Shown piece by piece: positions 15,399-18,940 of a stretch of DNA of 32,580 nt. Positions within the stretch are counted from its first letter, which is position 1. The number at the start of each line of letters is the position of its first letter. The position numbers were made by a program, and so were the translations under genes. The DNA comes from an uncultured Mycoplasmatota bacterium (GTDB taxonomy: Bacteria; Bacillota_I; Bacilli_A; RF39; UBA660): the NCBI GenBank assembly GCA_945948625.1, contig CAMFBT010000005.1, positions 1 to 32,580 on the forward strand. Reading direction: 5' to 3'. The notes under the pieces are model-generated. The model did not search any database and was not told the DNA's origin. It worked only from the letters and a program-made list of their open reading frames with translations.

Positions 15399-15451
15399 TT
15401 TGTCGCAATTGCAAGAAAAGAAAAAAATTAATTTTTTGAGGGAGGTTTTAT

Positions 15452-18391
15452 TTGAAAAAGGTTTTATTATTCATTGTTTTATTTTTATGTATTATTGGTA
15501 ATGTTAAAGCTGAAAATGTTACTTTGACTAAAGATGTGTATGATAACACTTATGTTTATTATTATGATAGTAATTTAGGTAGAACTAGATATTTAAAAGC
15601 TAGCAAATATTTATTTGGTACTACTGCTGCTTATTGTATTGAACTTGGAAAAGATATTAGTAGTTTTGAATATAATGTTACTAATTCTTTTGATGGTATT
15701 AATATTAATAAAGATGATCTTGATTATATTAAACTTGTTAGTTATTATGGTTATAATTATCCAGGACATGACACAGATAGATTTTATTTGGCTACTCAGG
15801 GTCTTATTTGGAAAAGATTGGTTAGAACTTCTATTAAGTTTACTATAGGATTTGATCCTGATGTTTTTTATAATTTGACTAATGAAGAGACTATTATTAA
15901 TGTACTTGTTAATCGGCATAAAATTAAGCCTTCTTTTGATGGTACTACTATTGATGTTGTTAAAGGTGAAGAGATTATTTTAGAAGATTCTAATAATGTT
16001 CTTTATTTATATTATTCTGATGATGATAATGTTGTTATTGATAATAATAAATTGATTATTAAGAAGGGATTTGATAAAAAATCTATTGTTTTGAAGAGAC
16101 ATAATTATACAAATAAGGATTTTTTCTTATATTCTTCCGGTAATTCTCAAAAGATGATGTCTTCAGGTGGTATTACTAATTCTACTAGTGAACTTAATGT
16201 TAATCTTATTAGTGGTAGTATTGAAATTAAGAAGTATGATAAGGAAACTTTAAGTGTTAGTCCACAAGGTGATGCTACTTTAGATGGGGCTATATATGAG
16301 TTATATGATGGTAATAATAATTTTATTGATAATTTTGTTACTGGTAAAAAGAGTAAGATTGAAAATCTTGGTATTGGGAAATATTATATTAAGGAAAAGA
16401 AAGCTAGTACTGGTTATTTAATTGATAATAATGTATATGAAGTAGAAATTACTAAGGATAATTTTGATAATAGTGTTATTGTATATGAAGATGTTATTAA
16501 AAGAAAGGTTGAATTATTTAAGGTTTATGCTAGTGATGATACTGGTTTTTTGGTAGGAGAATCTGATATTAGATTTGATATTTTTGATAAAAATGGTAAT
16601 TTTGTTAATTATATTGTTACTGATAATGATGGTTATGCTAGTATTTATTTACCATATGGTATATATAATTTTAAACAAATTAATAGTACAAAAGATTATT
16701 ATAAAATAGATGATTTTGAGATTGTTATTGATTCTAATGATGAAAGACCTATTTATAAACTTATTTCTAATAGTGAAATTAAGGCTAAAGTTAGGGTTAT
16801 TAAGAAAGATGTTGATACTTTAGAAAATATTATTAATGGTAAAGCTAGTTTTAAAATATTTGATGTTAAAAATAATAAATATGTTTCGTTTAAAATTAGT
16901 TATCCTGAAGATAAAATTATTGATGTATTTGATATTGATGATAATGGTATTTTTACTACTCCTTTTGAACTTGGATCTGGTGATTATATTTTATATGAAG
17001 TTGATTCTGATATGAATGGATATTTATATAATAAAGAAGGTGTTCCTTTTTCAATAGGTGAATCTTCTAATACAATAATGGAAAATAATGATGTTATATT
17101 AGAAGTACCATTTTATAATAAAATTGTTAAAGGGACTTTAAATATTTTAAAGTATGGTGAATCTATTAAATATAGTGATAATAGTTATTTTTATAGTAAT
17201 ATTCTTCTTGATAATGTTAAATTTAATTTATATGCAGAAGAAGATATATATGAAAATAGTAAACTTATATATAATAAAGATTCTGTAGTAGATAGTTGTA
17301 CTACTATTAATGGGATCTGTAGTATTACTGATTTACCTCTTGGAAATTATTATTTGAAAGAGATTTCTTCTAGTGGTGGTAATGTTATTAATAGTACTGT
17401 ATATAAAATTGAATTTAATTATAAAGATCAATATACTAAAAATATTATTTATGATTTGGAGGCTTATAATTATTTACCTAAAGGGAAACTTGTTATTACT
17501 AAATATGAAACTGGTAGTAGTAAAAGAATTAGTGATACTTTAATTGAAATTAGAAATATAAATAATGAAATTATATATAAGGGTTATACTGATAAGAATG
17601 GGCAAATTGTTTTAGATGATATGTTATATGGTGAATATTATATTTCTGAAGTTGAAGCTAGTACTGGTTATAAACTTACTTATGATAAAATATTTTTTGA
17701 AATAGGAGAAGATGATACTTGTATTGATATTTATAATGAAAGAATTAAAGTACCTAATACGGGAATTGGTTTTGGTCTTGTTGAAATTGTCATAATTATA
17801 TTTAGTTTATTAGATATTTTTATTGGTATTTTGTTTTTTAGAAATAAAAAAATTTTAGTTGTTTGTTTATTTATATTACTTCTTTCTTTTCTTTATTTTG
17901 GTATTAAATTTTATAATTATTATAATGATAAACAATATAATGAAAAAGCAGTAGAGGCAGTTCTTAATAATAGAATAGATAGTATTAGTAGTGATAAATA
18001 TAGATATAAAGCTATTTTGGAAATACCTTCAATTGGATTGAAAAGAGGAATTCTTGATATTAATAATAAATATAATTTTGCTAAATATAATATTGAACTT
18101 GTTAAAGAAGATAATGATATGATAGTACTGGCTTCTCATAACGGGAATAATTATAATTCTTATTTTGGTAAACTTAAAAATATATCTTTAGGTGATGAAA
18201 TTAATTATTATTATAATGGTAAGATATATAAATATATTTATACTGATAGTTATGAAATTAGGAAGGATGGATATGCTGATATATATCGTAAAAAAAGTGA
18301 AAAATCTATAATTTTAGTTACATGTAAAGATAATAGTGATGATGCTCAAATTGTTTTTATTGGTTATTTAAATGATATTTTAGAATACTAA
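15452..18391 (+). CDS. thioester-domain / SpaA-repeat surface protein with internal VPNTG sorting signal fused to C-terminal sortase-like domain
   Basis: TTG start with SD GGGAGG; signal peptide; Cys62 (AAYCIELG) and Gln116 (ATQGLIW) thioester pattern; about five prealbumin/SpaA-like repeats; VPNTG (17750-17764), TM, RNKK, second TM, then sortase-like LASHNG and ILVTC. Confidence 0.9.
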   Translation: MKKVLLFIVLFLCIIGNVKAENVTLTKDVYDNTYVYYYDSNLGRTRYLKASKYLFGTTAAYCIELGKDISSFEYNVTNSFDGININKDDLDYIKLVSYYGYNYPGHDTDRFYLATQGLIWKRLVRTSIKFTIGFDPDVFYNLTNEETIINVLVNRHKIKPSFDGTTIDVVKGEEIILEDSNNVLYLYYSDDDNVVIDNNKLIIKKGFDKKSIVLKRHNYTNKDFFLYSSGNSQKMMSSGGITNSTSELNVNLISGSIEIKKYDKETLSVSPQGDATLDGAIYELYDGNNNFIDNFVTGKKSKIENLGIGKYYIKEKKASTGYLIDNNVYEVEITKDNFDNSVIVYEDVIKRKVELFKVYASDDTGFLVGESDIRFDIFDKNGNFVNYIVTDNDGYASIYLPYGIYNFKQINSTKDYYKIDDFEIVIDSNDERPIYKLISNSEIKAKVRVIKKDVDTLENIINGKASFKIFDVKNNKYVSFKISYPEDKIIDVFDIDDNGIFTTPFELGSGDYILYEVDSDMNGYLYNKEGVPFSIGESSNTIMENNDVILEVPFYNKIVKGTLNILKYGESIKYSDNSYFYSNILLDNVKFNLYAEEDIYENSKLIYNKDSVVDSCTTINGICSITDLPLGNYYLKEISSSGGNVINSTVYKIEFNYKDQYTKNIIYDLEAYNYLPKGKLVITKYETGSSKRISDTLIEIRNINNEIIYKGYTDKNGQIVLDDMLYGEYYISEVEASTGYKLTYDKIFFEIGEDDTCIDIYNERIKVPNTGIGFGLVEIVIIIFSLLDIFIGILFFRNKKILVVCLFILLLSFLYFGIKFYNYYNDKQYNEKAVEAVLNNRIDSISSDKYRYKAILEIPSIGLKRGILDINNKYNFAKYNIELVKEDNDMIVLASHNGNNYNSYFGKLKNISLGDEINYYYNGKIYKYIYTDSYEIRKDGYADIYRKKSEKSIILVTCKDNSDDAQIVFIGYLNDILEY

Positions 18392-18460: not shown

Positions 18461-18940
18461 ATGGTTAAGAAAAAGAATATTAAACTTACAGAACACGTGT
18501 CATATTGTATTATAGATAGTACTATTTATTTATTTCAAAATAGTGATAATATATCAAGTGATGAAATGGAAATATTATGTAGAAGATTATCTTTAATTAT
18601 TGAAGATAATGATATTTCTTATATTAATATTTCTGCTAGAAAGATTGAAGATAGGAAAGAGTTTTATCAAAAACTTGGTTTTTCTTTATCATATTATGAT
18701 GTTAATAAACTTAATATTTTATATGAGGGTAAAAAAAATAAAAAAGATTATAAATGTTATGGTATTATGACGAAGAAGGATTTTTTTGATAGATTAAATA
18801 ATAAAAAAGTAGATACAAACTGCAATAAAGAAATTATAAATTATAATTCTGGTTATGTATATAATTTATTTCTTTTATTTGGAGGTATTTTACTTCTTTG
18901 TTATTTTTGTGTTCAAGGGGCTATTTATTTGGTTAAATAG
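18461..18940 (+). CDS. hypothetical protein with C-terminal TM segment (possibly GNAT-like N-terminal part)
   Basis: 159-aa ORF with SD; segment DRKEFYQKLGFSLSYYDVNKLNILYEG resembles the end of a GNAT fold; C-terminal hydrophobic helix. Confidence 0.55.
   Translation: MVKKKNIKLTEHVSYCIIDSTIYLFQNSDNISSDEMEILCRRLSLIIEDNDISYINISARKIEDRKEFYQKLGFSLSYYDVNKLNILYEGKKNKKDYKCYGIMTKKDFFDRLNNKKVDTNCNKEIINYNSGYVYNLFLLFGGILLLCYFCVQGAIYLVK

Follow-up and report, generated by a model that had tools for sequence, protein, structure and literature searches.

Introduction

Catalysis by sortases involves a Cys, a His and an Arg residue. On the substrate side, the closest known counterparts of the protein considered here include the class II TIE adhesins (SaTIE, BaTIE and the pLS20 adhesin), in which an N-terminal thioester domain is followed by CnaB/SpaA-like domains, as it is in the present case; SaTIE-TED is a class II thioester domain, and a class II thioester adhesin aids pLS20 conjugation (PMC8092201). 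Unlike the present protein, adhesins of the SaTIE/BaTIE type end in a sorting signal served by a separate sortase, while the pLS20 adhesin lacks one; that source describes no sortase domain in any of them (PMC8092201).

The window analysed here comprises 32,580 nt (positions 1 to 32,580 of the forward strand of contig CAMFBT010000005.1, assembly GCA_945948625.1) from an uncultured Mycoplasmatota gut bacterium of the GTDB family UBA660 within RF39. A preliminary description prepared from the letters of the window had proposed that one of its genes joins an adhesin to its own sortase, with the sorting signal lying between the two.

Results

The 979-aa ORF set out in the preliminary description, located at 15452..18391 on the + strand (as are all features given below), was borne out together with its proposed domain order by the open frame, Pfam, hydrophobicity and AlphaFold2, and its status as one gene by single-frame orthologues in addition. 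It begins with TTG preceded by a strong GGGAGG Shine-Dalgarno (SD) sequence (15437..15454 for the two together), and wherever the start is assembled in other species, eight in all, a GGAGG-type SD plus TTG recurs. The predicted signal peptide (~aa 1-20; 15452..15511) consists of an N-terminal KK and then a hydrophobic segment (1-19, KD 1.98), and is followed by a thioester domain (~aa 23-250; 15518..16201) and five SpaA (CnaB-like) domains recognised by Pfam as five separate stretches (aa 256-762; 16217..17737). Thereafter come a VPNTG motif (aa 767-771; 17750..17764), the hydrophobic segment of the sorting signal, TM1 (aa 776-794; 17777..17833; KD 2.76, modelled as a helix over the same residues), a basic RNKK loop predicted to be cytoplasmic (aa 796-799; 17837..17848), the N-terminal anchor of the sortase, TM2 (aa 801-819; 17852..17908; KD 2.59, with a model helix spanning 799-838 and hence extending to ~838), and finally the sortase domain (aa 851-979; 18002..18388), assigned from Pfam, fold match and residue conservation. 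The Pfam matches, each above its curated cut-off, were TED at 60-123 (1.3e-6), SpaA five times (1.2e-43) and Sortase at 856-962 (7e-12). All parts of an LPXTG-type sorting signal are present as VPNTG, TM1 and RNKK; the signal is, however, internal, with ~180 residues of TM2 and sortase downstream of it, rather than at the C-terminus of the precursor.

An AlphaFold2 model of residues 761-979 (mean pLDDT 88.5) consisted of a hairpin of two TM helices plus a beta-barrel. With two TMs placed around a short basic loop in both sequence and model, the topology proposed earlier, in which adhesin and sortase both face outside, is consistent. The full-length model (pLDDT 76, pTM 0.41) had low inter-domain confidence and did not fix the placement of the sortase relative to VPNTG, and is therefore silent on whether the active site reaches VPxT in cis.

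The closest solved structure to the thioester domain was that of SaTIE-TED (6fx6, E 4e-6) and, judged from sequence, the domain is class II-like. The two residues put forward as forming the thioester, Cys62 and Gln116, show no variation across nine species; the signal peptide and a thioester domain with this Cys and Gln are features of TIE adhesins. Candidate isopeptide residues (Lys/Glu/Asn) were likewise invariant in the last three SpaA domains: K451/E516/N556, K567/E637/N673, and K684 with E733 or E735 and N762.

Relatives of the gene were sought in other genomes, as the preliminary description had advised, and the same architecture was present in nine further genomes of the genus: the fusion is uninterrupted in 10 of the 11 genus genomes, the nine others comprising eight of full length and one assembled only for the C-terminal 306 aa, with identities of 51-61% for the full-length proteins. 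The stretch at 17700-18000, over which the integrity of the frame had been queried, is open in the window and in all nine. The eleventh genome has no such locus, an absence which is uninformative since that genome is 75% complete and lacks the neighbouring cdaA too. Nine of these same fusions were recovered when 85,462 species genomes were scanned by pattern, their records bearing the names Bacilli, Bacillales or Tenericutes bacterium. The fusion of the two reading frames is real, and is not an assembly artefact.

Across the ten species V767, P768 and T770 are invariant within a stretch that is otherwise variable, the only other invariant residue between the motif and the sortase core (positions 771 to 849) being D826; two species have VPNTS in place of VPNTG, and all ten fusions keep 89-93 aa between VPxT and the sortase core. 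The sortase is the most conserved part of the protein (64% mean identity), with a mean pN/pS of 0.35, against 0.66 at the TM junction and 0.44 for the protein as a whole. The invariant motif residues and low sortase pN/pS together argue that motif and enzyme are both under selection. Separate internal translation of the sortase was considered and rejected, since in eight of the ten species no SD-preceded internal start was found for it.

The beta-barrel of the sortase domain matched sortases when compared with the PDB by Foldseek (best E 4.8e-10, TM (target) 0.70), and the profile and fold are those of the sortase superfamily PF04203. The earlier assignment of a sortase-like domain accordingly stands as to its fold and as to His896 and Cys958, which are invariant in the 10 fused sequences and in all 74 rows of an alignment of the L031-L132 sortases with that of the window. 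What it had overlooked was that the canonical catalytic Arg is missing, its position being occupied by Gln966; activity cannot for that reason be assumed from known sortases. Gln was found at this position in 70 of the 74 rows, from fused and split genes alike and including every fused one, the four with Arg being three distant family members and one Enterococcus faecalis plasmid sortase. Lys occupies position 938, at the end of beta6, in each of the 70 Gln-type rows, with Gly two residues beyond it in all but one (a gap); in the four rows of the Arg type, position 938 is I, E or M, and D follows. Lys938 is a concrete candidate for replacing the positive charge of the missing Arg; the association of Gln with Lys938 may nevertheless reflect one event in the tree, and hence not independent covariation. 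Arg865 (beta2, LKRG) was rejected in the same role, since among Gln-type enzymes its column varies between R, K, Q, A and E. A literature search on the missing sortase Arg returned nothing relevant.

Adhesin and sortase genes that are paired and unfused occur elsewhere in the family and, as locus L001, in the same genome as the fusion. In a family sample of 146 genomes, nearly all of different genera, this sortase type lay in a frame longer than 255 aa in no other genus among the matches listed, and in a class sample of 197 genomes the fusion was confined to this genus; both searches followed the sortase type of the fused gene, other types being spot-checked only. One 559-aa ORF from another genus (L164, G131 contig C4) consists of an N-terminal region of ~280 aa, a TM and a class B-like sortase domain; it was rejected as a second adhesin fusion, its sortase being class B-like and of the Arg type.

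The split pairs suggest how the fusion came about. Of 35 pairs, 34 have the sortase displaced into the +1 frame with respect to the adhesin, 33 have the first ATG of the sortase within the final part of the adhesin gene, and 32 have both features. A deletion of 1 nt in the overlap, or an equivalent change, could merge two such genes while retaining both TMs and blending the basic stretches into one loop, and a merged basic loop between two retained TMs is the arrangement present in the window, where RNKK resembles the basic tail of the adhesin and the basic N-terminus of the sortase run together. The fused sortases form one clade (support 100/99), and with that monophyly a single ancient fusion is the simplest account. 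The fusion is likely to have arisen once, in the ancestor of the genus, the arrangement being evident from comparison and the direction taken from parsimony. Of the earlier proposal that an LPXTG adhesin lost its stop codon and was joined to an adjacent sortase gene, the fusion with both TMs kept survives, and the route is revised from simple stop loss to a probable merging of frames in the overlap, where the sortase start falls within the Lys-rich tail of the adhesin.

Sortase genes of the split pairs, among them L100 5638, L048 and L099 4791, start in the +1 frame as much as 50 nt before the adhesin gene ends, close to A-rich Lys codons, and some fused product could arise in these pairs by frameshifting. 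The split TED-SpaA plus sortase pairs of L099, L100 and L048 stand beside ParA/ParB, SSB or HerA/TraG-like genes, and this proximity to partition- and conjugation-type genes suggests an adhesin for conjugation carried on mobile elements. A phage origin was rejected, there being no match in phage records or viral contigs, and Foldseek comparison of the full-length model with viral proteins gave only low-TM matches to beta-repeats. Among plasmids the sole relative found was an Arg-type sortase of 31% identity, encoded next to an LPNTS protein in two Enterococcus faecalis plasmid records, and it was likewise discounted.

The surroundings of the fusion are largely shared within the genus. Here and in most other species, ffh and a CotD-like gene stand no more than a few kb away on one side; in two species, L036 (1338-2906) and L037 (1295-2863), the fusion is instead preceded by genes for a serine recombinase and a zinc-finger protein. 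On the other side the fusion directly precedes a small tail-anchored gene, then cdaA and ybbR. The tail-anchored product (18461..18940), of 159 aa with a C-terminal TM and no Pfam match, was seen only beside the fusion, being present in all 10 fusion genomes, in none of 29 genomes of other genera, and absent from the genus member that has no locus. No adhesin or sortase was found ahead of cdaA in the other genera examined. A MurE with a DNPR motif, which we take to be an m-DAP signature, adjoins the locus.

Discussion

The reading that we favour, with a probability of roughly 0.6, is that the fused gene encodes a self-contained display precursor comprising sortase plus substrate, which arose once by a merging of frames, is processed at VPxT, and has its adhesin transferred to a surface amine. 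The precursor would be exported by way of its signal peptide, TM1 and TM2 forming a hairpin around the short basic cytoplasmic loop so as to leave adhesin and sortase outside. With Cys958 and His896 as catalytic residues, Gln966 standing where Arg is expected and the charge perhaps coming from Lys938, the sortase would then cut the T-G bond of VPxT-G, either in its own chain or in that of a neighbouring copy, and hand over the TED-SpaA adhesin to an amine on the cell surface, most probably that of meso-DAP peptidoglycan. Peptidoglycan is the likely acceptor because a MurE with DNPR lies next door and because m-DAP peptidoglycan has been predicted for RF39-type Bacilli (PMC10868615). The TM1-TM2-sortase remnant would remain in the membrane, and the thioester domain, like others of its family, would bind its target covalently. 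The absence of the canonical catalytic Arg, a VPxT motif that is unusual beside LPXTG, and the VPNTS of two species count against this reading. The stricter proposal that the Gln-type sortase, aided by the Lys of its beta6/beta7 loop, processes its own VPxT in cis and so frees itself from the adhesin just anchored is put forward tentatively, as a doubtful though reasonable prospect.

One alternative has the sortase working chiefly in trans, on other substrates, with the adhesin part a mere passenger, or else has both modes occurring. Membrane-bound sortases normally work on separate molecules, and a remnant could stay active after self-release; yet a survey of the SpaA proteins of this genome revealed none with a sorting signal that was without a sortase of its own, the only other SpaA adhesin with such a signal having one (L001) and the third SpaA match being a lipoprotein-like ORF devoid of a sorting signal. 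We regard this account as rather unlikely.

An adhesin permanently tethered to the membrane, its sortase either not used on its own VPxT or retained as a structural anchor only, would accord with the replacement of the catalytic Arg and with a two-TM anchor that is enough for display. It is hard to reconcile with an enzyme in which His and Cys are invariant and which is more constrained than the adhesin, with retention of VPxT in a variable stretch, and with dozens of split pairs in which the same Gln-type enzyme accompanies an adhesin of the VPxT type, and is in our view quite improbable.

It is also conceivable, if less favoured, that the sortase links adhesin molecules into a pilus-like fibre in place of anchoring them to peptidoglycan. 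The SpaA repeats are pilin-like, and the class C sortase model and a SpaH/EbpB major-pilin model were matched weakly. Against this, an N-terminal thioester domain suits a single tip adhesin, and scores with the NCBIfam class C model fell far short of its cut-off (22-27 bits against 160); polymerisation seems a distant prospect. The class D (18-20 bits against 165) and SrtD (20-26 against 140) models were below cut-off as well, the general sortase model TIGR01076 giving 37.4-40.6 bits (cut-off 39.35). Joining of two genes by assembly or sequencing error, which a fragmented metagenome assembly and the split genes of other genera might have suggested, is refuted by orthologues with the same frame and spacing in ten species-level genomes from several projects.

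If the favoured account of a self-contained display precursor is correct, an enzyme of the sortase pathway and its substrate have been locked into one chain and kept so across a genus. The single chain points to the substrate that the sortase serves, and makes sorting in cis as against trans directly testable, while the clade-wide change from Arg to Gln accompanied by an invariant Lys constitutes a natural test of the purpose of the catalytic Arg in sortases.

Of known arrangements, the split pairs of the same family (L001, L099, L100) are alike in having a SpaA adhesin, often with TED, a VPxT-type signal, a Gln-type sortase with an N-terminal TM, and the same gene order; they differ in consisting of two overlapping genes in different frames, in a longer linker from TM to sortase, and in lying in some cases near plasmid-partition or conjugation-type genes. 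Class A, C and D sortases (5hu4, 7f87, 2kw8, 4d70) share the fold and the catalytic Cys and His, but are at most ~26% identical to the sortase of the window, which has Gln for Arg and is fused C-terminally to its putative substrate. Engineered BISOP (PMC2901362) likewise unites a sortase with the motif it recognises in a single chain, for deliberate self-cleavage; it is a man-made purification tool, whereas the fusion in the window is natural, membrane-bound and built around a two-TM hairpin. A prior description of the same architecture, which the preliminary description had named as counting against its proposal, was not found in the open-access literature searched, where engineered self-cleaving fusions were encountered and no natural sortase-substrate fusion was, earlier mention being possible. 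The parts of the gene belong to known families, and the element that we have not found described, enzyme and substrate joined with an internal sorting signal, is fixed across the genus.
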